64,000 nt of DNA. Origin: Candidatus Obscuribacterales bacterium (GTDB lineage: Bacteria; Cyanobacteriota; Vampirovibrionia; Obscuribacterales; Obscuribacteraceae). Numbering within the stretch: the stretch's first letter is position 1; each line of letters starts with the position of its first letter. Both the position numbers and the translations under genes were made by a program. Below, in pieces: positions 13,076-34,465 of this stretch. The DNA lies in assembly GCA_019744775.1 (NCBI GenBank), contig JAIETZ010000003.1:558001-622000 (forward strand), in the 5' to 3' direction. The notes beneath the pieces were generated by a model. That model did no database searches. It was not told the origin of the DNA and saw only the letters and a program-made list of their open reading frames with translations.

Positions 13076-13099
13076 TGTAGGGGCGCATTGCATGCGCCC
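13076..13099 (+). repeat. 24-bp palindromic repeat (PR24), copy 1
   Basis: The element has arms GGGCGCA and TGCGCCC around TTGCA, with the one-sided leader TGTAG. It is an exact consensus copy, located between the groEL stop and the groESL terminator. Confidence 0.85.
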
Positions 13100-18040: not shown

Positions 18041-18838
18041 TTAAGGACGGAAAAGTGGACTTGCTTTGAGTCCATTCTTTGCTGCCCAGAAGCTCATTAG
18101 GCTGCGCAATACGCCTAAGCCATACTTGACGCTATTCATAAAATTGATTGATGAAGCTTCAGCGAAATAACGTGTTTCGACTGGAATTTCTTCGATGTTG
18201 AATCCGAAGTAGACAGCCTGGCAAAGTATTTCCGCATCGAAAACAAATGCGAGTGAATTGCGCAGGAATGGAACTGTCTCGAGGAAACGACGGCTGTATG
18301 CTCTGTAGCCCGTGTGGAACTCAGATAAGTTTGTGCCGAGAATTGTGTTTTGTGTAGTTGTCAAAAAGCGATTGGCGATGTATTTGTACATCGGCATTCC
18401 GCCTTTAAGTGCACCACCACCGAGGAAGCGTGAGCCTAATACGATATCTGCACGTCCTTCAACAATTGGTGCAATCATTTCCGGAATTTTGCGTGGATCG
18501 TATTGGTAATCCGGGTGCAACATGATGACGATATCGGCACCATCACGCAGTGCTTCGAAATAGCAAGTCTTTTGGTTGCCACCATAACCAAGGTTATGTG
18601 GGTGTTTAACAACCTTGATCGGCAATGTGCCGGCAACTGCAACTGTGTCGTCTTTGCTGCAGTCGTCTACGAGAATCACTTCTGAGAATGTGCCCTTCGG
18701 CATGTCTTCAAAGGTCTTCAGTAACGTTTTGGCAGCATTGTATGCCGGCATAGTGACTATGACCTTAGGATTTTGGGGAACAGAGCTAGTGGTGCTAGCG
18801 GTCTGGCTGGATTGATAAGTAGTCGTGCTATTAACCAT
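18041..18838 (-). CDS. Family 2 glycosyltransferase (dolichol-phosphate-mannose synthase-like)
   Basis: A 265-residue GT2 enzyme. VIVTMPAYNAAKT, ILVDDCSKDDT and MLHPDYQYDP are the nucleotide-sugar and metal-binding segments. The C-terminal part (FHTGYRAYSRRFLETVPF, then IEEIPVETRY) is typical of DPM-like enzymes. No membrane segments follow, so it is a soluble or peripheral enzyme. The ATG at MVNSTTTYQ was chosen; a longer frame adds 27 residues without a ribosome site. It is divergent from a membrane TPR gene. Confidence 0.85.
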   Translation of the reverse strand: MVNSTTTYQSSQTASTTSSVPQNPKVIVTMPAYNAAKTLLKTFEDMPKGTFSEVILVDDCSKDDTVAVAGTLPIKVVKHPHNLGYGGNQKTCYFEALRDGADIVIMLHPDYQYDPRKIPEMIAPIVEGRADIVLGSRFLGGGALKGGMPMYKYIANRFLTTTQNTILGTNLSEFHTGYRAYSRRFLETVPFLRNSLAFVFDAEILCQAVYFGFNIEEIPVETRYFAEASSINFMNSVKYGLGVLRSLMSFWAAKNGLKASPLFRP

Positions 18839-18943
18839 ATCGATTCTGCAAATTCCTAAGTAAGAGTCTAATAAATTCCCAAACCCTAGCATGTTAAGAG
18901 GACTTGGCTTCAAAGTCAATTTTCAAAGGGGTACATTAGGTTA

Positions 18944-20137
18944 ATGAAGGGCTTGTCAACCTCGCTGAGCCATCGCTTGTATACGCTCCTGGGCGCCACT
19001 TTCGTCGTTTTCGAAGGAGTGTTTCTCACCCTTTGGGCAAATGACTTTTGGTTTAGGATTAATCTAGTCTTACTGGCACTGCCTGTTTTGGCTGTTGCGT
19101 GCGGAATGGCTCACCTATTTCTCTGCTGGCAGGAAAGCCCGCGTGGAATTGCATTTTTTGCGTGGCTTTTTAAAGGTCAGGCACCGATTACTTATCGTCG
19201 TTGGTTGAGCCTGGACGACAGTGGAATTGTGGTTGGATCAAGGCGGGTAATTTGGGAAGCAATTGATGGATTGACTGCCACTTTTTTCGGCAATTTGCAA
19301 ATTCGTTCATTCGCTCTATCTGGAACAGCAGTAAAAGAACCGGAAGTAATATTGAAATTCCCCTTGGGTGCAGCAAATGTAAGTGAGCAAATTGCGCTTG
19401 TTACAGCCATAAAAGAACACAAGCCAAATCTCATTACCAATAAGAAAATTGAAAAAGTAGTAAGTGCAAAACCACTAAAAGGCGAAGTGATATTGCGTTA
19501 TCTCTATGCTGGATTCATAGTGCTTTTACTCTGTGATATTGCATTTTCAACATTCTCGTATTTGGAGATGATGAAGCAATATCATCAGGCGCAAACAGCA
19601 GCAAAAAATCACGAGATGGAAAAAGCAAAAGAATATCTTGCCGCTGCTGAGAAAATTCAGGACAACCCGCCGGCGTTTTCGTATACTGCGCCAAAATTAT
19701 TGAAAGATGGTTCGGTTGCAGGTGGTGCATTGCGTGTACGTGCTGAAACACTTTATGCCCTTGGTGATAAACAGGGCGCAATTGATGCGGCTTACAGAGC
19801 GCAGAAAGCTCAACCTGCTAGTTATAAAACAAATTTGTTGCTGGCCCGTCTCTTGGTTGAGGATGGAAAATTGGCAGAAGCACGCGCTCAGGTGATATCA
19901 GCAATCGATGCAAGAGCCGATGAGCTTATGCCATACCTGTACATGATGGCTATTTACTGCCAGATGGATAAACGTCCAGAGGCTGAACGCCTTTATAAGC
20001 AAACTATGAACACTTTAATAGACCAGTTCTTTGGGGAGGAGCCAATTTGGCCCCCAGGCGGCAATCGCACTCTCCATGAGCTTTTCTCCTCAGATGACGT
20101 TAATTTCCTCTTTGTGCGTCTCCTTAAGTGCCCCTAA
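18944..20137 (+). CDS. Membrane-anchored TPR protein with PH-like segment
   Basis: A 397-residue protein with two N-terminal membrane helices, a beta-rich cytoplasmic segment (WLSLDDSGIVVGSRRVIWEAIDGL) like a bacterial PH domain, a third membrane helix near residue 190 (YLYAGFIVLLLCDIAF), and a C-terminal TPR solenoid (LGDKQGAIDAAYRAQKAQP and the next repeat). The same order is seen in the protein at 34846-35982, so the two are probably paralogues. It is followed after 66 bp by an SGNH protein gene on the same strand. Confidence 0.7.
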   Translation: MKGLSTSLSHRLYTLLGATFVVFEGVFLTLWANDFWFRINLVLLALPVLAVACGMAHLFLCWQESPRGIAFFAWLFKGQAPITYRRWLSLDDSGIVVGSRRVIWEAIDGLTATFFGNLQIRSFALSGTAVKEPEVILKFPLGAANVSEQIALVTAIKEHKPNLITNKKIEKVVSAKPLKGEVILRYLYAGFIVLLLCDIAFSTFSYLEMMKQYHQAQTAAKNHEMEKAKEYLAAAEKIQDNPPAFSYTAPKLLKDGSVAGGALRVRAETLYALGDKQGAIDAAYRAQKAQPASYKTNLLLARLLVEDGKLAEARAQVISAIDARADELMPYLYMMAIYCQMDKRPEAERLYKQTMNTLIDQFFGEEPIWPPGGNRTLHELFSSDDVNFLFVRLLKCP

Positions 20138-20203: not shown

Positions 20204-21406
20204 GTGCAGCAATCAACCATATCCAGAATTCTGTTCAGCACAACGGTATTGTCCGTGGTGCTTGTTGTTGCTTTCGATCTCTGGATAGGACTTGCGCATC
20301 CGTTAGCAAAATCACCGACTGCAAGTTTGGATCGCACTGAAGTTTATTGCGCGACAAATACATACGAGAAGGAAGTGAAGTCACCTCCTGTAGTTGTATT
20401 GGGTTCGTCGCTTGTAACTGCGCCAATCATGCAAGCGGAATCTAACTATCACAAGACTGCGATACCGCGCTTTTTGCATAGACGCTCGCATGTTCTAGAA
20501 AATGCGATTGCAGAGAAATTGGGAAGCACACCCGATGTCTATTGCATGGCAGTAGGTGGAGAGATGGCATCGGATGCTTATCTCATCACGAAACGCTTAC
20601 TGAAAAAGACAACGCCTATCGCTGTTGTGTATGGCGTTGCGCCAAGAGACTTTCAAGACAACTTGATGCCTGGCATTCAATCCAGTGAGACATTCAGAAT
20701 TTTGTCTGACATCGATGATGTTAAAGACCTGAGTCAAAAAACCACCTTGTCTTTTGAAGAACAAGGCGGACTATTTGTTGAGCGTATTAGCGCATTGGCT
20801 CGTTATCGCGCAGACATTCGCTCATATGTTGCATTGAGAGCAAAGAAAATTATCGACGCACTTTCGCCAGTGCCACTCTTTGAAAAGATGGGCCCCGATT
20901 TGCAAGTGCGCGTGCGCCGTGATGGCTGGTTTCCTGAAGAAGCACTGGGAACTCCACCGGCTGTACCTGGCTATGCCGTGGAGCACACGCCCGAGAAGCA
21001 AGTCACTTATGAATACATCCGTCGCTATAACCCAATCGCACCAAAATTCGTAGACGCTGAATTCGGTTATCTAAACAAGCTATTTCAATTGTGCGATGAG
21101 AAAGGCGTATCCGTAGTCGTCGTCAACATGCCGCTGAGCGCCTTCAACAAAAAGCTGATGGCCAAAGGCTTCTACACCGAGTACATGTCCCGCATGAAAA
21201 ACGTCTGCGCCCAAGCCAACGCCGAATTCGTCGACCTCAACACAACAGAGTGGGACGCAGCCGACAACTTCGTTGACTCCGTGCACTTAAAACCGGAAGT
21301 AAGCCAGAAATTCCTCGAGACTCTAGCCGACGTCGTCTCCAAATCACAAGCCGCCATTGCCATCAAGTCCGGCAAAACCATCGCCGCAACCACACAGACG
21401 CGTTAG
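20204..21406 (+). CDS. SGNH/DUF1574-like envelope protein (paralogue 1)
   Basis: A 400-residue protein with an N-terminal membrane anchor (residues 8-30) and an outward SGNH-hydrolase-like domain. VVVLGSSLVT holds the presumed Ser nucleophile (Ser69) and FVDSVHLKPEVSQ the late Asp-xx-His pair. GDAR-like acid residues and YGVAPRDFQDN are shared with the three paralogues at 23820-27665. By analogy with AlgX/AlgJ-type proteins it may move acetyl groups onto a polysaccharide. The start is GTG after GAGAG. This copy is separated from the MBOAT operon by about 2.4 kb. Confidence 0.75.
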   Translation: MQQSTISRILFSTTVLSVVLVVAFDLWIGLAHPLAKSPTASLDRTEVYCATNTYEKEVKSPPVVVLGSSLVTAPIMQAESNYHKTAIPRFLHRRSHVLENAIAEKLGSTPDVYCMAVGGEMASDAYLITKRLLKKTTPIAVVYGVAPRDFQDNLMPGIQSSETFRILSDIDDVKDLSQKTTLSFEEQGGLFVERISALARYRADIRSYVALRAKKIIDALSPVPLFEKMGPDLQVRVRRDGWFPEEALGTPPAVPGYAVEHTPEKQVTYEYIRRYNPIAPKFVDAEFGYLNKLFQLCDEKGVSVVVVNMPLSAFNKKLMAKGFYTEYMSRMKNVCAQANAEFVDLNTTEWDAADNFVDSVHLKPEVSQKFLETLADVVSKSQAAIAIKSGKTIAATTQTR

Positions 21407-21418
21407 TTCCGGTACTTC

Positions 21419-21441
21419 GTAGGGGCGCATTGCATGCGCCC
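21419..21441 (+). repeat. PR24 repeat, copy 3
   Basis: GTAGGGGCGCA, TTGCA and TGCGCCC follow the stop of the SGNH gene by 12 bp. It is an exact arm copy, with C in place of the leading T. It lies just past the 3' end of the response-regulator remnant. Confidence 0.8.
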
Positions 21442-21443
21442 GT

Positions 21444-21758
21444 CTAGCTCGCTCTCGGCGCTAGTCTCTGTAGGCTGGACAAAAAGTTGGGATCCACCAT
21501 ACACAGCCCATCCCGACAATTGCTCGACGCAACTACCTCCAAAACTTCCTCTTCCTCATGCGTTAACACTGGACTCGTCTTCGTATGCGCATTAGCGGCA
21601 AACAGCACTCGCCGTGCAATCAGCGGATCCAGCCACACTGACCCAAACTGCACCGACCTGACCGATGTCTCAAGCGCCTGAAGCATTGCCGTTCCCAGCC
21701 GAATGACCACGTCAACCTCGACAAGCAGTATTTTTACAGGTTCTGTTTGTGTTCGCAT
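21444..21758 (-). pseudogene. Internally deleted NarL-type response regulator remnant
   Basis: A 104-residue reading frame. The start (VKILLVEVDVVIRLGTAMLQALE) looks like the first strand and helix of a receiver domain. The text then jumps to a linker (SVWLDPLIARRVLFAAN) and the start of a LuxR-type helix-turn-helix (LTHEEEEVLEVVAS). The middle of the receiver, including the phospho-Asp and the Thr/Lys residues, is missing and the HTH is incomplete. AGGAG lies nine bases before the ATG, so a small protein may still be made. It could be a decayed gene or a genuine miniature regulator. Confidence 0.5.
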
Positions 21759-22021
21759 AACCGCTAACTCCTCGTTCCCAAGGGTAATGTAGTCGATTAA
21801 GGTGCAAGATTTGTGGAAAAGTTTCAGACTTTTGGATTGTAAATTAATCTGTTGTGAAGATGCAGAAAATCTACCATCAAGCCAAGAAGATAGACGGTGA
21901 GTTCGCTTAATGCAAGACTATTTAACGCGGCGGCCATTCTACTTTTGTTGCATATGAAACATTGTTGGAAAATCGATTTTCCATTGGGAATAAAAATTGA
22001 TGTATCTGTTGATGGTGAAGT

Positions 22022-23032
22022 ATGGCTGATAAGAAAAAGATGGTCCCCGGGAATGTGCCAGGCGATTTTTTCGTCGATACGACTTGTATTAATTGCGACA
22101 ACTGCAGGGCTTTGGCGCCTACGGTGTTCGGGGAGTTTGGGGATTATGCGGGTGTTAAGAAACAGCCGGAAAATGATGAGGAAGTGCGGGCGGCGTTGCA
22201 TGCGCTTGTTTGTTGTCCGACTGGCTCAATTGGGACTGCCGAGAAGCATGATATTAAGGCGGCGATGGCCGACTTGCCGATTCATATAGACGGTGGGATT
22301 TATTATTCGGGGTTCAATTCGCCAAAGGCTGCCGGCGGACAGAGTTATTTGATGTTGCATGATGGCGGCAATTGGATGACGGATTCGCCGAAGTTTCATC
22401 CGCATGTGACTAATTGGATTGATGAGCATGGTGGGTTGAAGTACATATTTCTGACGCATAGGGATGATGTGGCGGATGCGAATAAGTATGCAGAGAAGTA
22501 TGGGGCTAAGCGAATTATTCATAGAGAGGATTTGGAAGCGCAGCCAGATGCTGAGATTGTTATTGAGGGCATTGAGCCGGTGCAAATTGATAACGATTTT
22601 CTGGTAATTCCAATGCCGGGACATACGGAAGGGCATTGCATGATGCTGTACAAGAACAAGTATTTGTTTTCCGGTGATTCGCTGACGTCGAATTACTATC
22701 GTAAGGATGGGCTGGAATGCTGGGGTCCATTGTGGACTTGGTATTCGTTTGATGTGCAGACAGAGTCGTTGGAAAAGCTACGTAAATACGATTTTGAATG
22801 GATTCTGCCGGGGCATGGGCGTCGCTGGCATGTGGATTCGGCAGAGATGAAGCGTCAGGTGGAGAATATGCTGAATCAAGCTCAGCACGAGCCGCCACCT
22901 AATTGGAAGATTAAGCTAGCCCATGTGGAAGCCTATGCGGACTATATGGAGAAGTCTCACCAGCCAATTTATGCGGCTAAACAGCGCAAGATAGCCGAAG
23001 AAATCCGGGCCCAGATGGCGATTACGAAATAG
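22022..23032 (+). CDS. Ferredoxin-like domain fused to metallo-beta-lactamase fold hydrolase
   Basis: A 336-residue fusion. The N-terminus carries a 4Fe-4S ferredoxin motif (Cys22, Cys25, Cys28 and Cys64 or Cys65 before PTGSI). The rest is a metallo-beta-lactamase fold: THRDDVAD is the variant of HxHxDH, MPGHTEGHCMM and SGDSLTS follow, and LPGHGRRWH is late. The first His is the only one of the first HxH pair, so metal binding is atypical. Similar fusions are found in cyanobacteria and plants; the reaction is unknown, and redox-linked hydrolysis is a guess. The ATG follows GGTGAAGT. Confidence 0.82.
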   Translation: MADKKKMVPGNVPGDFFVDTTCINCDNCRALAPTVFGEFGDYAGVKKQPENDEEVRAALHALVCCPTGSIGTAEKHDIKAAMADLPIHIDGGIYYSGFNSPKAAGGQSYLMLHDGGNWMTDSPKFHPHVTNWIDEHGGLKYIFLTHRDDVADANKYAEKYGAKRIIHREDLEAQPDAEIVIEGIEPVQIDNDFLVIPMPGHTEGHCMMLYKNKYLFSGDSLTSNYYRKDGLECWGPLWTWYSFDVQTESLEKLRKYDFEWILPGHGRRWHVDSAEMKRQVENMLNQAQHEPPPNWKIKLAHVEAYADYMEKSHQPIYAAKQRKIAEEIRAQMAITK

Positions 23033-23040
23033 TTTGTTTG

Positions 23041-23119
23041 TCCTGTCCAATATTGAGCCTGTCCGTATAGATAAAGTCACGAGGGTTCATATTTCTGTTG
23101 CCGTCTAAACGGACAGAAA
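23041..23119 (+). promoter_or_regulatory. Leader with direct repeats and hairpin before the 23134 gene
   Basis: CCTGTCC occurs twice, at 23042 and 23058. CTGTCCGT (23059-23066) has its exact complement ACGGACAG at 23109-23116. The latter also forms a tight local hairpin: TTTCTGT and CCGT (with a 2-base bulge) pair with ACGG and ACAGAAA around CTAA (23092-23119). The hairpin ends just before the AGGGGAGG ribosome site, so two folds are mutually exclusive. Confidence 0.4.
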
Positions 23120-23133
23120 CAGGGGAGGACTAA

Positions 23134-23823
23134 ATGTCAGGACTGGATACTATTGAGTCAAATGATAAGCAAGCTGGTGCAACAGTTGATGCGTCGAGAT
23201 TTACTGATTACATAGCGTCAAATGATGTTGGAAGTGCTGGTTATCGTCAGATGAGTGGGGCGAAGTATGATTCGGCGAAGCCGGTCGGTGGGCAGGTTAT
23301 GGTGCCTAAAATGGACGAATCCATTTATCCGAAGGCGCAAGAAAAACCAAAATTACTTCAAGGACATGCTTCAGTAGTTGATCCTGATGCCGGTAATGAA
23401 GACGTTATGATTGGTTGGAATAAGTGGGCGAAAGACGTTCAACTACAGAGCAAGAAGAATCTCAATGAGTTTTTGACCCATCCAAGCAAATTGACGATAA
23501 ATGATGAGGCTGTGACACAAGCTGACATGCTGGAAGGGATTGATCAGCAGAATAGATTTGCGGTTAAATTCGATCGCAACGGGCATGTCGCGCAAATCAA
23601 AAAGATGCAGAGTTCCGGTAATAAGATATTCGACAAAATATCCGAGACAGCGATAACGGATTTGGATGGTACAGATACTGTAGATTTTCCGACGGGATCG
23701 CATCGCCAGGTTAGTGATGTTCTTGAATTTGGTTTTCGTCCAGGTGCTGGGCGTGATGATTTACGACAAATGAGCGCTGAGCGTGTCACTCGTCCGAGAA
23801 ACTACTACGATTCAGACAACTAG
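23134..23823 (+). CDS. Hypothetical protein, hydrophilic
   Basis: A 229-residue protein not recognised. It has no signal peptide or membrane segment and is rich in Asp, Lys and Gln. A segment FAVKFDRNGHVAQIKKM resembles the short beta repeats seen in the 42882-43640 protein, which may hint at a lineage-specific family, but this is weak. A very good ribosome site (AGGGGAGG) precedes the ATG, so it is a real gene. It converges with the SGNH operon and overlaps its last gene by 4 bp. Confidence 0.7.
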   Translation: MSGLDTIESNDKQAGATVDASRFTDYIASNDVGSAGYRQMSGAKYDSAKPVGGQVMVPKMDESIYPKAQEKPKLLQGHASVVDPDAGNEDVMIGWNKWAKDVQLQSKKNLNEFLTHPSKLTINDEAVTQADMLEGIDQQNRFAVKFDRNGHVAQIKKMQSSGNKIFDKISETAITDLDGTDTVDFPTGSHRQVSDVLEFGFRPGAGRDDLRQMSAERVTRPRNYYDSDN

Positions 23824-25058
23824 TGAACTTGCTTGATGGCAACTGGCTGATTGGTCAGTCCGGCAGTTAGATTGCGATCGTCTGAAATTGAGTTTGCGAT
23901 ATTGGTCAGCAACTTCAATCCGCCGTTTGCGTTCAAGTGCACAGTGTCTAGATAGTCTTCTAGAACAAAGTCAGGACTGGTCGACATGTCTGCAAGGGTT
24001 GCATTGTTCTTATTGCACAAAGTTGAAATGTTGGTGCGGAAGACCTTCCAGAAGGTATCGGGTAACAGTGCTCTATTTGGTCCAAGGCTGGGCATCATGA
24101 CGATAAGTGTTGGCACTTTTGATGCATTGAGACGTTCCAGCAAGTCACTAAAGAATGCAAGTTCGCTTGCATACAATGGTGGGTTTGGATTTGTGTAGCG
24201 ATTTACGTATTCAGCAGTGTTGTCTTTGAATAAGTAAGGCATAAAGGCTGGGACAAACCAAGAGTCTTTCTCTACCTTGGTAGAAGAGGCGAACATGCCC
24301 TTCATGAAGTCTGCTTCTTGAGTTGATTTTTTAGCGACAGCTGTTGTCTTGGGAAGAAACTTGGCTGGCGAATAAGTTGTTTGCATTTCGGTTTTCAAAC
24401 GACCTAGCGGTAGGTACTTATTGATGTACCAATTCATTTGACCGAAGTAATCGCCAAATGCGAGTTGGGCAAGATTGCCTGGATCCGCACATTGGGAGAA
24501 GAAGCGAAATGGTTCAGTTGTGCCGGCAGAAGGAAGCGTATTGTCGATGAAGATGCGTGGCGAGATGCCTATGACTACAAGCTTTGGTTTCTCTGTGTCT
24601 GCATTGTCTAAGAACAGACTGCGGGCGATAAGGTTGTGATCAGAAGCCATTGAGCCGGCCATAGCTGCGTTAAACACAGATACAGGTCGTGCCAGCTTGT
24701 TGGAAAGTCTTTGCTCAAGTCCTTCTACATGGCGATGAGCAATAACATCAACCTTCTTGCCTGATGCTTTAGCATCAGCTGTGAAGATAGCCGTTGCCAT
24801 TTGTGAGTCGCCAAGGACGACAACATCGGGAGTTCGCTTCTCATCGAGATAGGCTTTGGCAATCCACCACGGCCAAGTTTTAGACATACTTGTCGTGTCT
24901 GATTCGTCGTTTTGTTGGACGAGTTGTTGCAAGTCTTTCTGTGGCGTGAATAATCCGAATGCGGATGTTTTCCAAACAACAAGATTAACCAAAGCAAAAC
25001 CAGCCAGGGCATAAATGAACCGGCTGGATAGTTTAGAGGTGTTGTTGTTGTCTGGCAT
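23820..25058 (-). CDS. SGNH/DUF1574-like envelope protein (paralogue 4)
   Basis: The last gene of the MBOAT operon encodes 412 residues: an N-terminal membrane anchor (FIYALAGFALVNLVVW) and an SGNH-like domain. It has the most canonical block I of the four paralogues (VVVLGDSQMA, with the classic GDS), VIGISPRIFIDN in the middle, and YLDTVHLNANGG as block V. GAGGATA precedes the ATG. It starts 6 bp after the previous SGNH gene. It probably acts outside the membrane in polysaccharide O-acetylation, inferred from the MBOAT partner. Confidence 0.8.
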   Translation of the reverse strand: MPDNNNTSKLSSRFIYALAGFALVNLVVWKTSAFGLFTPQKDLQQLVQQNDESDTTSMSKTWPWWIAKAYLDEKRTPDVVVLGDSQMATAIFTADAKASGKKVDVIAHRHVEGLEQRLSNKLARPVSVFNAAMAGSMASDHNLIARSLFLDNADTEKPKLVVIGISPRIFIDNTLPSAGTTEPFRFFSQCADPGNLAQLAFGDYFGQMNWYINKYLPLGRLKTEMQTTYSPAKFLPKTTAVAKKSTQEADFMKGMFASSTKVEKDSWFVPAFMPYLFKDNTAEYVNRYTNPNPPLYASELAFFSDLLERLNASKVPTLIVMMPSLGPNRALLPDTFWKVFRTNISTLCNKNNATLADMSTSPDFVLEDYLDTVHLNANGGLKLLTNIANSISDDRNLTAGLTNQPVAIKQVH

Positions 25059-25064
25059 TATCCT

Positions 25065-26345
25065 CTACATTGTGGGTTCAGATTTCTTCTGATCTTTTTC
25101 TTTTTTTTGTTCGGCAAGCGCTTGGTGTTTTTCCAAATTCTGTCCGGACATGACCAGAAGGCTTGAGCTACGCTCGTTCACTTGCAGTGTGGCAACTAGG
25201 GTGTCGAAGAATTTCTTGGCGCCAAAGGCATTTAGGTGTACGGAGTCGTGGAAGTCGCCGCGTTGATCGTATTGAGGGAAGCTCGCCATGTTGTACAAGC
25301 TTGTATTGTTGTTGATTGAAAACTGTTGTAGGTCACTTAGGTAACGAACATAAGCACCTTGTGGTAGCATGCCGACGTTGTAGAGAGTAATTGGCATATT
25401 TACGATGATAAGTTCCATGCGCTCTTTGTGACAGAAATCAGCAAGCTCTCTCAAGAAATGGAATTGCAATTTATAAGTGTGTGGGTCCGGATTGCGGTAG
25501 CGGGACATGTATTCGACTGTGTTGTCCTTGAATTCCGCTGTTTGTTTTGTGATTGGCCCAGCCATGACGGCTTCCGGATGAATCTCGCCAGGCATGTAGC
25601 GTGGTAGAAGTTTGACTCTGTCCCACCAAGTAAAAGGCGTTTTCGTCCATGGTGCAGGAAGCGCGGCAGCGAGGAATTTGTTCGCTCCGTCAACGAAAGC
25701 AAGTCTGAAGTCGAGGGATGAACCGTATAAATAGACGGCGCGTTGCAACCACCATTCAAGTTTGTCGTCAGATTTGCGGAAGGCGACATCGGTTAAGTCG
25801 TCGGCGTTGACCAGACGGCGCAAATAACGAAATGGTTCAGTATCGGCAGGTGATGACAAAGTGCTGTCGATAAAGTCACGCGGAGCTACGCCATAGATGA
25901 CGATGTCGGGGCGCTGAGCGGTGTTGACCATCGCTTTGAGTGTAAGCAGCGCATCCGAAGGCATTTGTCCGGGAGCCGCCAAGCTAAAGGTGTTGAATGT
26001 GCCGCCGAAGCGTGTGCGAAGTAAATGTTCTAGGTAGCTTGCCTTGTGATAGTTGGCGAGATCTAAGCCTTTGCCGAGGTAGTTGGAATCACAGCCTGCT
26101 ATGGCGCTCACCATCAAAGATGAGCCAAGTAAAGCAACGTTATTTGTTTGCTGTTGCTTGCGCAAGTCATTCATCGTCCACCAAGCCCAGCCGCGATAAC
26201 CAAACTTGTATGGATCAAAATTAAAAGGTGTATAGAAAGACAAAGCCCAGTTTAGAGCTAGGAAAAGACCCATAGCAAAGAAGAAGGAACTTCTAAATGG
26301 ACGAAATGCCTGTTTTTCAGCTGGTTGTTGTGAACCGGGTTCCAT
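25065..26345 (-). CDS. SGNH/DUF1574-like envelope protein (paralogue 3)
   Basis: A 426-residue paralogue with a membrane anchor near residues 20-38 (FFFAMGLFLALNWALSF). The nucleophile region reads VALLGSSLMV, the middle IYGVAPRDFID and block V FHDSVHLNAFGAKK. The C-terminus is Lys/Glu-rich (EQKKEKDQKKSEPTM). The gene starts at the base next to the previous gene's stop, implying translational coupling. Having three such proteins beside a single acyltransferase suggests either separate targets or a hetero-complex. Confidence 0.8.
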   Translation of the reverse strand: MEPGSQQPAEKQAFRPFRSSFFFAMGLFLALNWALSFYTPFNFDPYKFGYRGWAWWTMNDLRKQQQTNNVALLGSSLMVSAIAGCDSNYLGKGLDLANYHKASYLEHLLRTRFGGTFNTFSLAAPGQMPSDALLTLKAMVNTAQRPDIVIYGVAPRDFIDSTLSSPADTEPFRYLRRLVNADDLTDVAFRKSDDKLEWWLQRAVYLYGSSLDFRLAFVDGANKFLAAALPAPWTKTPFTWWDRVKLLPRYMPGEIHPEAVMAGPITKQTAEFKDNTVEYMSRYRNPDPHTYKLQFHFLRELADFCHKERMELIIVNMPITLYNVGMLPQGAYVRYLSDLQQFSINNNTSLYNMASFPQYDQRGDFHDSVHLNAFGAKKFFDTLVATLQVNERSSSLLVMSGQNLEKHQALAEQKKEKDQKKSEPTM

Positions 26346-27665
26346 TTAGAGCGAGTTGCCTTTGCGTTGTGCTAGGGATTTAGTATCGATTTCTACATTG
26401 CCTTTGTTCAAGTAAGACAAAGTGGTGCTGTCCAATCTAATAGTTTCAACCAAACAGTCGAGCATTTTCTTTCCGCCATCCGGACTCAAGTGAACAGTGT
26501 CCATAAAGTCTGTGACTTGAAATGCGCCGCTGTTGTGCAAGTCGACATAACTTGCGCCTTTGGCTTTTGCCAGGGCTTTGACGCTGTTCATATATGCGCC
26601 CCAGGCTCTGTCTGAAAGCAACGAGCGATTTACATCTGTGATTGGCATCGCCATGACGACAACGTGAATACCTCGCTGTTTAGCAACGTCCAAGAAGCTG
26701 GCAAAGAATTGCATTTGGGTAAGGAAAGTGTCCCACTTCAATTCTTTGTAGCGCTTGCGATATTCAGCGAGGTTGTCGAAGATGCCGCGCTTTTTGTCTT
26801 CAGCTGTTTCAGGGCGGAAGAAGGCTTCGCCAACTTCAAGCTCTGCAGGACGATAGGCCGGAAGCAATTGGCGGCGGTCAAATATCGAAAATGGCTTAGC
26901 CCCTTTTGGTGCAGGCAATACATCATTGATGACGGTATTGGCAAGCTTTGCCAGTTTGTCAGTTATCTTCTCGCGGTCTTTGTAGAAATAGAAGACTTTG
27001 CCAAGTTCGTAGTCTAAACGAGCTTGCCAGTCAGGCAAGAACAGCGATGCATGGTCGTCAATTGAACCAAGTTGACTCAATAAACGAAACGGATCTGTTG
27101 CTGATGGACTGGGCAACAAGTTGTCCATGAAATCACGTGGACCGACTCCATAGACAATTACATCGGGCTGCTTGTCATCTTTCAACAAGAAGTTGGTCAC
27201 CATGTAAGCGTCAGATGGCATTTCACCAGGCAAGGCAAACGTATAAGCACTCGCTGAATAGCCTGTGCGGCGCTTCAGTTGATCTTCGAAATATTGTGAA
27301 TGGTGATGCTTTGATCCGTCCAATTTCTTGTTCAGGTAGTTAGCGTCGTTGCCTGAAAGCGGCACGAGCATTAAGGATGAGCCAAGAAAGACAACGTTCT
27401 TGCGATCGGGTGCATTGATGAAATCATTCACTGCCCAGCCAACCCAAGACTTGTCCAGCTTGTAATTGTTGGCGTTTTCCTTGCTCTTTCCGGCGATGTA
27501 ATAGTTCAGTGCAAGAAAGATCATTAGGGCAACCACCGCAGTGCTGCCCTTTAGGAGGCGTGTTATGGGACAACCTGAAGACTGTGCGCAACTCGCCAAC
27601 TCTGACGGAGTTGATTCACACAATCTTTGAGCCGCCGCATTCTTTGTAGCTTCGGTCTCTTTCAT
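26346..27665 (-). CDS. SGNH/DUF1574-like envelope protein (paralogue 2)
   Basis: A 439-residue paralogue and the second gene of the operon, 12 bp after the MBOAT gene. A cytoplasmic N-terminus of about 40 residues is followed by a membrane helix (STAVVALMIFLALNYYI). The nucleophile region is VVFLGSSLML, the middle is VYGVGPRDFMDN and block V is FMDTVHLSPDGGKK. The sequence is closest to paralogue 3 by shared phrases (GEMPSDAYMV compared with GQMPSDALLT). The role is as for the other copies. Confidence 0.8.
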   Translation of the reverse strand: MKETEATKNAAAQRLCESTPSELASCAQSSGCPITRLLKGSTAVVALMIFLALNYYIAGKSKENANNYKLDKSWVGWAVNDFINAPDRKNVVFLGSSLMLVPLSGNDANYLNKKLDGSKHHHSQYFEDQLKRRTGYSASAYTFALPGEMPSDAYMVTNFLLKDDKQPDVIVYGVGPRDFMDNLLPSPSATDPFRLLSQLGSIDDHASLFLPDWQARLDYELGKVFYFYKDREKITDKLAKLANTVINDVLPAPKGAKPFSIFDRRQLLPAYRPAELEVGEAFFRPETAEDKKRGIFDNLAEYRKRYKELKWDTFLTQMQFFASFLDVAKQRGIHVVVMAMPITDVNRSLLSDRAWGAYMNSVKALAKAKGASYVDLHNSGAFQVTDFMDTVHLSPDGGKKMLDCLVETIRLDSTTLSYLNKGNVEIDTKSLAQRKGNSL

Positions 27666-27677
27666 GTGAATCTACCG

Positions 27678-29135
27678 TTAGAACTGGAAGTAGATGAACT
27701 TTGGTGATGTGTCTGGGCTGAATACGGTCAGTACGCACATCAATGCCACCATTACGCAGACTTGGAGAGCCCACGGTGGGGATTGGTAGAAGCGCTTGTC
27801 GTTCATCCAGTCGATAACGACTTGAGAGATCATCAAGATTGGCAGAATGATAAGTAGTGCCGGGAAGATGATTGGATCTCTTATCTGCAGAATGTTCAAC
27901 TGGCTGGCTGTGAAGTGGAGAAGATCCACTGGAGCCATCATCATTTTGCTGAGCATTTGGCCGGCGATGTTCATATCTTCAGCTCTGAAGAATACCCAGC
28001 CGATAACAACCAGGTGGAAAGTTACGACCACTGATACCCAGTGATACACCTTCGAGTTGACCAACTTTTTGGCAACACCTAATGCTTCGCAAAGTTTTTG
28101 ATATTCCTTGTGCAAGACAAGTAAGATGCCGTGGAATGCGCCCCAGATGAGGAAGTGCATAGCTGCACCGTGCCAGAGTCCGCCTAACGCCATTGTTACG
28201 AATAGGTTTCTGTAGCTCTTCCACTGGCTGCACTTGGAGCCGCCCATTGGAATGTAGAGGTAATCGCGCAACCAGGTTGACAGCGAAATGTGCCAACGAT
28301 GCCAGAAATCTGAAACGTTTGCCGAGATGTATGGCAGATTGAAGTTGATCGGTACTTTGTAGCCGAAGAGCAACGCCGAACCACGAGCGATATCCGTATA
28401 ACCGGAGAAGTCGAAGAAAATTTGGAAGGCATATGCGTATGCGATAAGCCAAAGATCAACTGAACCAAAATTTGCCGGATGAGCAAATCCTGCCTCAACT
28501 GCTAAAGCCAAATTGTCGCCAAGGATGAGCTTTTTGAACAAGCCCATGAGAATGAGGTTCATGCCCTGGTCAACGTATTCCCATTTGAATTTTGCCGGAA
28601 TGGACAATTGTGGAATGAAGTCCATGTAACGCTTAATTGGACCAGCAATTTGTGTTGGGAAGAATGAAGCGAACAATGAGAAGTCGATGAGTGACTTAAC
28701 TAATGGCTTGCCGCGATAGACTTCGACTGCGTAGTGAATAAATTCGAATACGAAGAAGGAAATACCTAACGGCAACAAGATGTGCAAGTGTGGCTCTCTC
28801 CAAGCTACACCGAATAAATCCAAGCTGTCTTTGAGGCAGGTGATTGTGAAGGTTGCGTATTTGAAAATGCCCAAGGTGATTAAGTTGGCGGCGACGATAA
28901 GTCCGACCATCCACTTTTTGCCCTTTTCGGTTTTTGCTTTTGTGATTAAAGGCACCAAAAGGAAATTGCCGAGCGTGAGACCGGCAATGAGAAGTCCGTA
29001 GATTGGACGCCACGACATATAAAAGATATAGCTTGCCACCAAAAGTAGTGGCACGCGCAATCTGTGTGGACAAATCCAGTAAAGGAGGAAAACCGTTGGT
29101 AGAAAAACCAGATACTGAAGGCTTGTGAATAACAA
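27678..29135 (-). CDS. MBOAT family O-acyltransferase (AlgI/DltB-like)
   Basis: A 485-residue polytopic membrane O-acyltransferase. It begins MLFTSLQYLVFLPTVFLLYW, the typical AlgI start. It carries the family signature GYTDIARGSALLFGY, followed by SDFWHRWHISLSTWLRDYLYIP, and the catalytic-His region LGGLWHGAAMHFLIWGAFHG. Known members pass acetyl groups across the membrane to alginate or other polymers. The start is TTG with GGAG seven bases upstream. It is the first gene of an operon with three SGNH-like proteins, matching the AlgI plus AlgX/AlgJ design. Confidence 0.93.
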   Translation of the reverse strand: MLFTSLQYLVFLPTVFLLYWICPHRLRVPLLLVASYIFYMSWRPIYGLLIAGLTLGNFLLVPLITKAKTEKGKKWMVGLIVAANLITLGIFKYATFTITCLKDSLDLFGVAWREPHLHILLPLGISFFVFEFIHYAVEVYRGKPLVKSLIDFSLFASFFPTQIAGPIKRYMDFIPQLSIPAKFKWEYVDQGMNLILMGLFKKLILGDNLALAVEAGFAHPANFGSVDLWLIAYAYAFQIFFDFSGYTDIARGSALLFGYKVPINFNLPYISANVSDFWHRWHISLSTWLRDYLYIPMGGSKCSQWKSYRNLFVTMALGGLWHGAAMHFLIWGAFHGILLVLHKEYQKLCEALGVAKKLVNSKVYHWVSVVVTFHLVVIGWVFFRAEDMNIAGQMLSKMMMAPVDLLHFTASQLNILQIRDPIIFPALLIILPILMISQVVIDWMNDKRFYQSPPWALQVCVMVALMCVLTVFSPDTSPKFIYFQF

Positions 29136-29310
29136 AGCTTTGTCTCCCTATAGGTCGGCTTGTCAAGCGCTCGCAAATCAGCGCAACACCGAAATAATCG
29201 CTTACCGGTTTCCAGTAAGCGTCTGACCAATAATAATGTCTAGATTTCAAGGATGTCTAGTCAAAACTAGTTCTCTTAATCTAAAAGCTTTTATATAGAA
29301 GAAAGTAAAA

Positions 29311-29333
29311 GGGCGCATGCAATGCGCCCCTAC
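29311..29333 (-). repeat. PR24 repeat, copy 4
   Basis: A reverse-orientation copy with perfect arms, ending CCCCTAC. It is intergenic. Confidence 0.85.
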
Positions 29334-29473: not shown

Positions 29474-30235
29474 CTAGTCGTTGTTGTCGCCAGCGGTTGA
29501 ACGGGAAAAGCCTTCGGCTATTAGCTGGTAGCCGCCGCCATAGACGGTTTTGATGTACTTGCGGTCGCCTGTCTCAAGGCGTGTGCGCAAATGGCGAATA
29601 TGCACGCGTATCGTGTCCACATCGTCATCTGGCGAGTATCCCCAGACTTCTTCCAGAAGCTTGCCTGTGGATACGGTCTGACCGTGATGCTGCATCAAGC
29701 AGTGGAGAATTTCAAACTCGGTTGGTGTCAGCTTGACGATGCGTTCTCTGACCTTCGCCTGCAGGTTTTCCGGAATTAGCGTTATCTCACCGGCAGTGAG
29801 AATTTCCGGTAGCGAAGCCGACGGTGGAACGGTACCTGCACGGCGCAGAAGCGCTCTGACGCGTACTTGAAGCTCGGGAATCTCAAATGGTTTGACCAAA
29901 TAGTCATCAGCACCTGAATCAAAGCCGCTGACCTTGTCATGAGTCATGCCAAGAGCTGTAAGCATCAAAACAGGAATTGTTTGGGTTGTTGGATTTTGAC
30001 GGAGGCGTTGGCAAACAGTGAAGCCATCCAAATCTGGCATCATGACATCCAGGACGATTAAGTCCGGACGATTTTGCTGAGCAAGCGCCAGTCCCTTGAT
30101 ACCATCGGACGCCGTTGCTACCTGGTGTCCCAAGAGTTCAAGGTTTACTTTGACCAATTCGGCAATAGCCTGGTCATCATCGATTACGAGAATCCTGCTC
30201 AAGTTCAAACTCCCTTTTTCGGGCTTACTTGCCAT
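29474..30235 (-). CDS. OmpR-family response regulator
   Basis: A 253-residue two-domain regulator. Its receiver has the acidic pair in VIDDDQ, phospho-Asp in [10 protein letters not shown], Thr in MLTALG and Lys in YLVKPFE. The C-terminal winged helix ([22 protein letters not shown], then [14 protein letters not shown]) is of the OmpR/PhoB type. No histidine kinase is adjacent, as for cyanobacterial RpaA/RpaB regulators. AAGG precedes the ATG, 16 bp after the PlsY-HtrA gene on the same strand, so it may be cotranscribed with der and plsY-htrA. Confidence 0.92.
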
Positions 30236-30251
30236 ACTTACCTTTCACTAT

Positions 30252-31949
30252 TTACCCGGCATTTCCTACAGTCAATTTTACCGGCACTTTAATTAATTTG
30301 CCGTGCCTGAGAACAGTCAATGTAACTAATTGTCCTGGTTTCAATTTATCAACATAAGACAACAGGTCATCTGCTGAGCGAACTTGTTGATTATCAACCA
30401 TTGTTATGACGTCGGCTTGCGTGCTGTCCACCGATTGGATGGTGAATGCACCTTGCTGATAAACAACATTTTTTGGTCCTTGCAGTCCGGCTTTGGCGGC
30501 AGGACCATTTGGATCAAGTCTCATCACGCGTAAGCCAACATCGAGTTGTTGAACGGCTTCGATGCCGGTGTCCGGGCGAATAATGCGGTGATGAGCAATA
30601 AGCTCAGGCACCAAATTCTTCGCGATGTTTATCGGAATGGCAAAACCAAGACCGGCAGATTGTCCAGAGCGCGAGAAAATTGCTGTGGTGATGCCGACCA
30701 TTTGTCCTGACGAATCAAGTAGAGGTCCGCCTGAATTACCGGGATTTATCGCAGCATCTGTCTGAATAATGCCTTTGATAAGTCTTCCTGAGCCTGTCTG
30801 CATTGTTCTGCCTGTCGAGGAGATAATTCCTACAGTCAGTGTGCGTTCTAAACCAAACGGATTACCGATTGCCAAAACTTTTCTTCCGACTTCCATCTTG
30901 GAAGAATCACCGAATGGAACAACAGTGAGTTTTGTATTTGCCGGCGGTACGATTTTGACAATCGCCAAATCATTTGCCGGATCAGTGCCGACAATCTCAG
31001 CAGGTACATTGGCTCCGTTAAATAGCGTGACGCGCAAGCGCTGCGCCCCTTCAATCACGTGATTGTTGGTGAGGATATATCCTTCGGGGCTGATAATTAC
31101 GCCGGAGCCAAAACCTTCTCTGGGAATTGCATTCAAGAAGAAGTCGCTTTGTATCGACTGAGTGGAAATGTTGACCACAGCCTGATTGGTTGCTTTGTAG
31201 ACTCTGATGTTGACCGCTTCGTCGGGTAACAATCCTGTCGTGCCGTTTGTGGCAGCAGGCTTTGCCCAGACTGCAGATTGGCAAACCAATAACGTTGTTA
31301 GGAAAAAGAGGATCAGTGAGCTGAACAAGCGCTTTTCTTCTCCTCGCATAATGCGACCAATGTTGTCTTTGTGTCTGAATATTACATATGATGCGCCCAT
31401 GGCGATGTAGAGGACAAAACTAATCGGTGCTTTATAGGGATAAGTAACTGTTGCAACTGATATGACGGCAACGACAGCGGCAGTCATTGATGCAATGCTT
31501 ATGATGCGTGTTGTCAGTCCAATTAAAGCGAAGATAGCGAATGTAATTGCAGCAGCTACAGGTTGCATGGCGATCACATTACCGAGAGCAGTTGCCGCGC
31601 TCTTGCCGCCTTTGAAGTTCAAAAATATTGACTTGCTGTGACCAATGAGTGTCATTGCTGCCACTATCGGCGGTATTATCATCCAGTCTCCGTATGGTAT
31701 CGCATCGAGCACTCTTGCTTTCTGCAAATAGATAGCAAGCCAGACTGGGAAATAACCTTTGAATACATCAGCAATCAGCACAAAAACACCAGGGCCTTTG
31801 CCGACTGTTCTGGCAACGTTAGTTGCGCCGGTTGAGCCGGAGCCGACTTCTCTTATGTCTATGCCTTTTAGGAGTTTACCGACCCAATAGCCGGTCGGAA
31901 TTGAACCTAGTAAATAACCTAATGCAATCAGCCCGAGTGCTGTCAGCAT
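30252..31949 (-). CDS. plsY: PlsY glycerol-3-phosphate acyltransferase fused to HtrA/DegP serine protease
   Basis: One 565-codon frame encodes two complete proteins. Residues 1-205 are PlsY, the acyl-phosphate-dependent first acyltransferase of phospholipid synthesis: GSGSTGATN (36-44), GHSKSIFLNFKGGK, and the usual end FRHKDNIGRIMRGEEK. A new membrane anchor (209-225) then leads into an HtrA protease with His297, Asp327 and Ser406 (PGNSGGPL) and one PDZ domain (about 440-565). There is no stop or frameshift between the halves. PlsY is thought to have five helices with its C-terminus inside, so the extra helix would place the protease outside. AGGAG 11 bp before a TTG codon at residue 208 could allow separate HtrA translation. 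Confidence 0.9.
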   Translation of the reverse strand: MLTALGLIALGYLLGSIPTGYWVGKLLKGIDIREVGSGSTGATNVARTVGKGPGVFVLIADVFKGYFPVWLAIYLQKARVLDAIPYGDWMIIPPIVAAMTLIGHSKSIFLNFKGGKSAATALGNVIAMQPVAAAITFAIFALIGLTTRIISIASMTAAVVAVISVATVTYPYKAPISFVLYIAMGASYVIFRHKDNIGRIMRGEEKRLFSSLILFFLTTLLVCQSAVWAKPAATNGTTGLLPDEAVNIRVYKATNQAVVNISTQSIQSDFFLNAIPREGFGSGVIISPEGYILTNNHVIEGAQRLRVTLFNGANVPAEIVGTDPANDLAIVKIVPPANTKLTVVPFGDSSKMEVGRKVLAIGNPFGLERTLTVGIISSTGRTMQTGSGRLIKGIIQTDAAINPGNSGGPLLDSSGQMVGITTAIFSRSGQSAGLGFAIPINIAKNLVPELIAHHRIIRPDTGIEAVQQLDVGLRVMRLDPNGPAAKAGLQGPKNVVYQQGAFTIQSVDSTQADVITMVDNQQVRSADDLLSYVDKLKPGQLVTLTVLRHGKLIKVPVKLTVGNAG

Positions 31950-31961
31950 GAGTGTCCTCCG

Positions 31962-33326
31962 TCATTTTCTTTCTTTGGGTCGTGTAATAAGTCTAATTGG
32001 CGTACCGGAAAAACCAAATGCTTCTCTGATACGTCTTTCGAGATAAGTCTTGTAGTTGTCAGTCAAAAGTTTGTTGTCGTTGACAAACAATACAAATGTC
32101 GGTGGGAGAACTGATACTTGCGTGCTGTAGTACACCTTGAGGCGTGTGCCGCGCTTGGATGCCGGCGGTGGTGTAATGGCTACTGCTTCATTTACAACCT
32201 GGTTGATTAAAGAGGTTGAAATGCGTCTGGTGCTTTCTTGCAAGGCGCGGTCGGCTGCTTCAACAATCTTGGGTAAGCGCTGCTTCGTGTGTGCAGAGGT
32301 GAAGACAATCTCTGCATAATTTAAGTGGCGCAGTTCTCGTTTCGTCTCTTCAATAAGATCGTTCATTTGCGCCGAAGATCTATCTGGAATTAAGTCCCAT
32401 TTGTTGAGTACTAATACTACCGGTTTGCCGGCCTCTTCAATCTTGCCGCCGATTTTTTGATCTTGATCAGAAATCGGTTGGCTGACATCAAGCACCAGTG
32501 CCACCACATCTGCTCTGCTTATTGCTCTTAAGGAGCGTACAACAGAAAATGCCTCAATGCCGTAATCGACTTTCGATTTGCGCCTAATTCCGGCTGTATC
32601 GATGAGGGTGATTTCGTGACCCTTGAATTTGAACTTGGTATCGATTGCATCACGAGTCGTACCTGGCTCTGCGCTGACGATCATGCGTTGCGTGCCTGTC
32701 AACACATTGACGATTGATGACTTGCCGACATTCGGCTTGCCGACAATTGCCAGTGAAAAGTCTTTTTTGGCTTGAGGCTCTGCGTTTTCGTCTTCTTCGG
32801 TGAATTCAACCGGCTTGTCTTCTTTGGGTGGGAAGAATCCAATTATTTTATCGAGAAGGTCGCCTACACCACCAGAACCTCTTAGAGCTGAAAGCGAATT
32901 TGGTTCGCCTAGCCCCAGACTGTAGAAATCGCTTAAGTTGATTTCTTCTTTCGGCTCGTCAATTTTGTTGACGGCAAGAATAATTGGTTTCTTTGACTTG
33001 CGCAGCATATTTGCTACGTCTTTGTCGTGTCCGGCAACACCGGATTTACCGTCAACCAGGAAGACAATGACGTCAGCTTCTGCTACTGCTTCAGCGACCT
33101 GTTCAGATACTGCTGAGGAAATGTGCTCCTTGCTGTCTGGTACCAGACCACCGGTATCGACAAGAATGAAGTCACGCCCTGACCAATCGCATTCGCGATA
33201 CAAACGGTCGCGCGTGACACCAGGGCTATCATCAACGATAGCGGCTTTGTCACCGACACAACGATTGAAAAATGTGGATTTCCCGACATTGGGGCGCCCG
33301 ACAATGGCGACCACTGGTTTGAGCAT
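31962..33326 (-). CDS. der: Ribosome biogenesis GTPase Der (EngA)
   Basis: A 454-residue double-GTPase for 50S subunit maturation. Two complete G domains are visible: GRPNVGKST with DTGG and NKID in the first, GKPNVGKSS with DTAG and NKWD in the second. The KH-like C-terminal domain ends in GTPIRLITRPKERK. An acidic/Lys linker (PPKEDKPVEFTEEDENAE) joins the G domains. It lies 12 bp upstream of the PlsY-HtrA gene and 47 bp downstream of the J-domain gene. Confidence 0.97.
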   Translation of the reverse strand: MLKPVVAIVGRPNVGKSTFFNRCVGDKAAIVDDSPGVTRDRLYRECDWSGRDFILVDTGGLVPDSKEHISSAVSEQVAEAVAEADVIVFLVDGKSGVAGHDKDVANMLRKSKKPIILAVNKIDEPKEEINLSDFYSLGLGEPNSLSALRGSGGVGDLLDKIIGFFPPKEDKPVEFTEEDENAEPQAKKDFSLAIVGKPNVGKSSIVNVLTGTQRMIVSAEPGTTRDAIDTKFKFKGHEITLIDTAGIRRKSKVDYGIEAFSVVRSLRAISRADVVALVLDVSQPISDQDQKIGGKIEEAGKPVVLVLNKWDLIPDRSSAQMNDLIEETKRELRHLNYAEIVFTSAHTKQRLPKIVEAADRALQESTRRISTSLINQVVNEAVAITPPPASKRGTRLKVYYSTQVSVLPPTFVLFVNDNKLLTDNYKTYLERRIREAFGFSGTPIRLITRPKERK

Positions 33327-33373: not shown

Positions 33374-34465
33374 TCACATGCTTGGTTCAGTTTCATCTGG
33401 GTCGGATTCGGCGCCAGGCTGGGGTTTAGACTGGGTTCCGAACTGCTTGCCAAGCTTTGGCTCTTGAGTTTCCCACCATCTGAGCAAAACATCCTTGGCT
33501 GTATTTAAGTAAACGGCAATTTCGGAGTCTCCGCCTTGATCCGGGTGGGTACCGGGGCGTGTAATTTCGCGCTTCCAAGCCTCCATAATTACCTGCCTGC
33601 TGAGTTCTTCGGGTCTTATGCCTAATACCAAACAAGATTTACGAATATCCGGTGGAACAGTTCGTAATATAAAGCCCTTAGGCGCCTGTTCTGAAGTGCG
33701 CGCAAATCCTGAGGCGGCCAAACCCTTACCTTTGCCTTGAGCAGGATCAGCCTCTGTTTTGTCTCGATGCTGCTTCAAAATGTTGCGCAACTCTTCGGTG
33801 GAAATGGTATTTCCCATCTCGTCGTGCTGCTCGTCTTGCCCTTCCGTTTGATCTAATTGTTGATCGTGAGACTGTATTTCACTCTGATATTGTAGGTCTT
33901 CCGACCAAGCGGGAGGCGGTGCTTCTTGTGGTTCATCATACGAATAGTCAAAGCTTTGTGGCGCTGAGTACTGCTCGCTTCTGTCGTAAGCGTTGAATGT
34001 GTTTTCTTCAGCAGGCGGTTCACTGGGTGCTTCTTCTGTGAATGCGCTGCGGCTTTCCTCTGGGAAAGGAGCACCATCGACTAAGTAAATGGATGCTTCG
34101 TCCCAACCTGCTTTGTAGCCGCGCTGCCAGTTGTCTTTTTGCTGTTCTAAAAGTTCGGTGTTTTCCAATTCCAACTGGTGAACTCGCTCTTGCAGAGCAG
34201 CCACACTTTGAGTGCCTTCCGATGTCTCGTGGGGTGCGTCAGGAACTGCTTCATCAGTGTGAATCATTGGCAGTCCTGCTTTCTGGCGTGCTTCGTTTAT
34301 CAACTCCATCGCTTCACTGTTGCGATAGATGTTGGTGCGAGCGGTTTTCATCTCGTCAGCTACAGTGTACGGGTTGATATCCCACGCTCTTGAGCGCAAT
34401 GCAGATATCGCAGCAAGTACAACTTGCTTGTCTATTTTTTTCGGGTTGGTTAAATCGCGTAGCAT
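33374..34465 (-). CDS. J-domain protein with N-terminal HTH-like segment
   Basis: A 363-residue protein. The N-terminus (LAAISALRSRAWDINPYTVADEMKTARTNIYRNSEAM) looks like a DNA-binding helix-turn-helix. A coiled coil and a long Glu/Gln/Pro-rich disordered region follow. The C-terminus is a J-domain with intact HPD (THPDQGGD), which would stimulate a DnaK ATPase. The J-domain lies at the C-terminal end, unlike DnaJ, and there is no zinc finger. It may direct DnaK to a DNA-bound target. It is upstream of der on the same strand. Confidence 0.72.
   Translation of the reverse strand: MLRDLTNPKKIDKQVVLAAISALRSRAWDINPYTVADEMKTARTNIYRNSEAMELINEARQKAGLPMIHTDEAVPDAPHETSEGTQSVAALQERVHQLELENTELLEQQKDNWQRGYKAGWDEASIYLVDGAPFPEESRSAFTEEAPSEPPAEENTFNAYDRSEQYSAPQSFDYSYDEPQEAPPPAWSEDLQYQSEIQSHDQQLDQTEGQDEQHDEMGNTISTEELRNILKQHRDKTEADPAQGKGKGLAASGFARTSEQAPKGFILRTVPPDIRKSCLVLGIRPEELSRQVIMEAWKREITRPGTHPDQGGDSEIAVYLNTAKDVLLRWWETQEPKLGKQFGTQSKPQPGAESDPDETEPSM

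Follow-up and report, generated by a model that had tools for sequence, protein, structure and literature searches.

The window, the 64,000-nucleotide stretch of DNA analysed here, contains a cassette in which one MBOAT acyltransferase gene is followed by three tandem genes for SGNH proteins, S1, S2 and S3. The best explanation of this arrangement, which we hold to be somewhat probable, is a vertically inherited MBOAT–SGNH O-acyltransferase system whose single membrane donor supplies several dedicated transferases. In known MBOAT–SGNH pathways the number of SGNH partners is one or two; the new feature is the 1:3 cassette, which is old and well kept. No paper describing three SGNH partners per MBOAT was found in a literature search of partial coverage, the accompanying genome search being one of this phylum. 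The host is an uncultured Obscuribacterales bacterium, and the close relatives of the locus among named genomes are Candidatus Obscuribacterales MAGs, such as Ca. Obscuribacter phosphatis EBPR_351. The cassette predicts an acylated envelope polymer in Obscuribacterales, an order for which the literature search returned no work on envelope acylation.

All four cassette genes lie on the minus strand. The MBOAT gene, of the DltB/PatA/AlgI type, occupies 27678..29135 and begins with a TTG start codon. It is followed by S1 (26346..27665), a predicted membrane-anchored SGNH transferase, S2 (25065..26345), predicted to be an SGNH transferase from its alignment and clade, and S3 (23820..25058), a predicted SGNH transferase with a GDS site. 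The intervening gaps measure 12, 0 and 6 bp in window coordinates, and the layout given in the preliminary description, an MBOAT gene with three closely spaced SGNH genes behind it, was confirmed at every coordinate. The same description counted a fourth paralogue at 20204. This gene, S4 (20204..21406, plus strand), is indeed a paralogue; it does not belong to the operon, being on the opposite strand, convergent with the cassette and 2.4 kb away from it.

The 27678..29135 product is an MBOAT with certainty: it matches PF03062 with an E-value of 2.5e-28 and 99.8 bits against a Pfam cut-off of 27, and its closest solved structures are those of DltB (E 3e-35). The GGLWHG and W.RWH (WHRWH-type) histidine motifs are invariant among cassette MBOAT orthologues. 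At the C-terminus, two extra transmembrane segments precede the hexapeptide FIYFQF (27681..27698, minus strand), which matches FXYXXF and places Tyr482 as the predicted acyl carrier. FIYFQF is found in 42 of the 43 family MBOATs examined, and the remaining one has FVYFQF. FXYXXF is an acyl-shuttle motif that PatA-type MBOATs carry on two extra C-terminal transmembrane segments; its tyrosine is acetylated in PatA, and the acetyl-tyrosine peptide serves as acetyl donor to PatB (PMC12148441). Two further MBOATs in the host genome, at C8:76132 and C13:169877 (L059 and L060), have the shuttle motifs FIYFQF and FVYFQF, and no SGNH homologue was detected within several kb of either.

The SGNH proteins S1–S4 share 25–33% pairwise identity. 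The alignment bears out the earlier report that all four keep a GSS or GDS nucleophile site (GSS in S1, S2 and S4; GDS in S3) and a D-x-V-H-L block, here D-[TS]-V-H-L. The predicted catalytic triads are Ser97, Asp389 and His392 in S1; Ser76, Asp367 and His370 in S2; Ser85, Asp371 and His374 in S3; and Ser69, Asp358 and His361 in S4. Across an alignment of 100 sequences from the S1–S4 family, the nucleophilic serine, the aspartate and the histidine are 100% conserved, indicating that the motif sharing exceeds chance. Each protein has one hydrophobic N-terminal segment, which is weakest in S2, and S2 is the most conserved of the three cassette partners across the family. All four copies are under purifying selection, with dN/dS values of 0.024–0.042 for S1–S3 against the closest relative and of 0.056 for S4 against a more distant relative, at which dS is near saturation. 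Degenerate paralogues acting as scaffolds are ruled out by the triad conservation and the low dN/dS.

A PDB sequence search with an SGNH profile yielded nothing useful, and a fold search was therefore used. AlphaFold models of S1 and S3 (pLDDT 88.0 and 89.4) both have DltD as their best fold match, with E-values of about 1e-5 (6e-6 for S3) and a probability of 1.00. PatB (7tjb) ranks sixth for S1 and 38th for S3, so that the SGNH fold, which the preliminary description had proposed checking by structure prediction, is recovered through matches to both DltD and PatB. Full-length TM-scores to the fold matches are modest, at about 0.35–0.45, which shows a common fold class with DltD and PatB rather than close kinship. 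In both models the helix that follows strand 1 has the serine at its start, and the Asp..His pair lies just before the last core helix. The earlier label of an AlgI-like MBOAT with SGNH/DUF1574-like partners thus needs changing in its first half, the closest solved MBOAT being DltB, while the partners do have a DltD/DUF1574-like SGNH topology.

DUF1574 (PF07611) is an SGNH family without a characterised member or an assigned function (PMC9487903), and a literature search of partial coverage found none for it. S1 (37.0 bits) and S4 (42.9 bits) individually exceed its cut-off of 29.1; S3 falls below it at 14.4 bits, and S2 gives no match. Among the aligned relatives, 53 of 77 match DUF1574 at E<=0.001. 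The cassette ties this family, catalogued without function, to an acyl-shuttle mechanism.

The distribution of the system was surveyed with the S1–S4 proteins as queries in 50 genomes of the host family and a phylum sample of 386 genomes. Homologues occur in 3–25 copies in every same-family genome examined; none was found in another family of the order or among the class genomes sampled, and the relatives picked up in the phylum sample outside the host family were all weak and most of them partial. The MBOAT-S1-S2-S3 order is fixed, and 35 of the 50 family genomes contain the whole cassette. Contig ends cut it in four (G020, G035, G438 and G443), S2 is missing in four (G004, G026, G005 and G022), S1 is missing in one (G007), and the cassette was not found in the remaining six (G018, G021, G030, G031, G441 and G446). 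A 4-nt overlap between S1 and S2, seen in 17 of 25 complete loci, is consistent with translational coupling.

In the phylogenetic tree, S1, S2 and S4 each form a clade of their own (100/100), and the S3 clade (100/100) also holds one stray paralogue of the host genome. It follows that the duplications are older than the family's radiation. The phylogeny proposed earlier as a check on recent duplication accordingly points to an ancient one, and recent tandem duplication is ruled out by the tree together with the identities. Vertical inheritance of the cassette is proposed as one part of the best explanation. The stray member of the S3 clade is a solo SGNH paralogue without an adjoining MBOAT (L056 8909-10126; C3:668944 in the host genome).

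Orthologues of S4 are present in 24 of the 50 family genomes. In 12 of these carriers the gene is linked to the cassette and in the others it lies elsewhere; in G018 the orthologue adjoins a different MBOAT. S4 is probably an extra, exchangeable and facultative partner. A plasmid search with S4 returned no match.

By analogy with PatAB and Dlt, the MBOAT would convey an acyl group towards the cell exterior and load it onto Tyr482 of the shuttle peptide, which would in turn charge the active-site serine of S1, S2 or S3. These three proteins are predicted to be periplasmic, with a single N-terminal helix as membrane anchor in each case, and each would pass the acyl group to a hydroxyl, perhaps that of an envelope glycan. 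The group itself may be acetyl, as in PatA. Most likely, S1, S2 and S3 would work in parallel on different positions or acceptors; two observations favour this over a fixed relay and over an obligate trimer, namely that some loci lack S1 or S2 and keep the other genes, and that one cassette-type MBOAT is accompanied by S2 alone (L198). Tentatively, a single shuttle tyrosine may be a hub that supplies three or four paralogous transferases, each with its own acceptor; the envelope would then be acylated combinatorially throughout the family, and DUF1574-type SGNH proteins would gain a first function. With its catalytic residues intact and its natural one-gene losses, the 1:3 cassette offers a comparative system for studying how a donor chooses its partners.

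The alternative that survives best, although unlikely, is a serial relay in which the MBOAT acylates one or two SGNH proteins and these in turn pass the group on to a terminal SGNH protein. S3 is the candidate for that terminal position, as it alone of the partners is never missing from an uncut cassette, and alginate offers a precedent in the proposed series AlgI-AlgJ-AlgX (PMC10641220). However, the persistence of S1+S3-only and S2+S3-only systems argues against a fixed three-step chain, as does the MBOAT with S2 alone. In addition, the remaining MBOATs of these genomes are, a few exceptions apart, followed by a single SGNH gene, so that 1:1 pairing of family members is the rule elsewhere. 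The MBOAT of L198 (G023:C63) is a second cassette-type copy, 65% identical, and adjoins an inverted MBOAT–SGNH pair.

The parallel use of several dedicated transferases can also be compared with the alginate and cellulose systems. AlgI/AlgJ/AlgX/AlgF and WssH/WssI/WssF/WssG each have more than one SGNH-type protein per MBOAT and acylate an extracellular polymer. They have two SGNH proteins, whereas the window system has three or four, and the earlier statement that its partners outnumber theirs holds, with the triad kept in every one. AlgX and AlgJ have a domain organisation different from that of the window partners. Membership of the alginate type is rejected because the partners are DltD-like; a search of the host genome for the AlgX family (PF16822) gave no match, the control set being likewise silent.

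A second, still less probable alternative is the transfer of a group other than acetyl (for example amino-acyl, as in Dlt) to a lipid or phosphopolymer acceptor. The Dlt system (DltB/DltX/DltD), which carries out teichoic acid D-alanylation, provides the closest solved structures for both the window MBOAT and the SGNH models, and PlsY is a conserved neighbour of the cassette; both points favour this possibility. Yet the proteins score below the curated TIGR04091/TIGR04092 equivalog cut-offs, with 200 against 375 bits for DltB and 18.4 and 15.4 against 150 bits for DltD, and Dlt membership is rejected on this ground. In Dlt the shuttle motif resides on the separate protein DltX, whereas here it is part of the MBOAT, which is the arrangement of acetyl-CoA systems (PMC12148441). 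Next to the cassette, no gene for DltA, DltC or a DltX microprotein was observed. A further difference from Dlt lies in the host group, which is diderm by description and has lipid A genes (PMC4040986).

Among acetyl systems, PatA/PatB peptidoglycan O-acetylation of Neisseria and Campylobacter (PMC12148441) has an MBOAT with a C-terminal FXYXXF, as here, next to a membrane-anchored SGNH protein with a Ser-Asp-His triad. Like S1–S4, PatB has an N-terminal serine and a C-terminal D..H. PatAB, however, has one SGNH partner against three plus S4 in the window, and PatB belongs to DUF459 (PF04311) with its block II glycine replaced, whereas S1–S4 are not DUF459 proteins and retain the canonical glycine. 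A search of the host genome with a positive control gave no DUF459 match. A more distant relative of the system occurs in a photosynthetic cyanobacterium (L180 2945-7522), where the C-terminal domain of a 996-aa protein is a distant SGNH homologue, encoded 87 bp upstream of an MBOAT with PYIYFDF at its C-terminus; its single partner with a long N-terminal extension is unlike the window system.

Two explanations are improbable. One is that S1, S2 and S3 form an obligate hetero-oligomeric transfer complex with a single MBOAT. The fixed gene order and the close or overlapping genes, which suit stoichiometric co-expression, would fit it, but three points speak against it: some genera have naturally lost S1 or S2 and keep the remaining genes, S4 is unlinked to the cassette in half of its carriers, and all members have full triads, which leave no pure scaffold. 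Ape1 is an editing esterase that acts beside PatAB. That one SGNH paralogue similarly removes groups added by the others is equally doubtful: the canonical block II glycine is compatible with hydrolase activity in one member, and thus counts against the best explanation, and the majority of characterised SGNH proteins are esterases (PMC12148441), yet all members share an N-terminal membrane segment, a DltD-like architecture and a conserved core, and the partners of 1:1 MBOATs belong to the same family.

The conserved neighbourhood bears on the polymer involved. In family loci, the order is a gene corresponding to that at 33374, Der, PlsY, HtrA, a response regulator and then MBOAT-S1-S2-S3. In the window these neighbours, all on the minus strand, are a Der-like double GTPase (31962..33326; recognised by eye from its sequence and by synteny), a PlsY–HtrA fusion (30252..31949; Pfam domains and synteny) and an OmpR/PhoB-type response regulator (29474..30235; nearest NCBIfam models RpaB and PhoB). 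From the other side of the cassette come a TPR gene, often S4 and sometimes a GT2 gene. The TPR membrane protein (18944..20137, plus strand) is encoded 66 bp upstream of S4 and has a homologue by the cassette or S4 in 19 relatives; the GT2 (18041..18919, minus strand) resembles polyprenyl/dolichyl-phosphate sugar synthases and adjoins the TPR gene in six relatives.

GT2 and aminotransferase genes had been described as nearby, and an undescribed exopolysaccharide had been suggested. The GT2 at 18041, two genes from S4, does lie close, but the second GT2 (8972) and the DegT aminotransferase (7786) are more remote, at about 11 kb past S4 and about 18–20 kb from the MBOAT. The exopolysaccharide suggestion is weakened, as the conserved neighbours are housekeeping genes and form no polysaccharide cluster, and an exopolysaccharide operon is rejected for this reason and for the distance of the aminotransferase and second GT2 from S4.

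In the fused gene, a PlsY glycerol-3-phosphate acyltransferase is in frame with an HtrA-type protease (trypsin + PDZ). Most of the family has the two as neighbouring, unfused genes; besides the window, G001 and G002 carry the fusion, as does a second group (G008, G013, G028, G035 and G440), suggesting perhaps two fusion events. Between S4 and the cassette, a gene at 22022-23032 (plus strand) encodes a protein that joins a ferredoxin-like 4Fe-4S domain to a metallo-beta-lactamase-like one, with homologues at the same place in two relatives only.

Upstream of the MBOAT gene, a promoter-like site (29230..29259, minus strand) has a 10/12 match, with sites of this kind as frequent as in shuffled sequence, and a palindromic, terminator-like hairpin (29309..29331, minus strand) lies between the response regulator and the MBOAT gene. 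Given these two elements, the cassette might conceivably be its own transcription unit. The hairpin is one instance of a dispersed repeat, GGGGCGCATTGCATGCGCCC, which forms a perfect or near-perfect palindrome. Copies in the window lie at 13081, 14790, 21423, 29311, 37036, 37768, 47755 and 49896, and the host genome has 110 matches in forward and 104 in reverse orientation, where the control gives 0.
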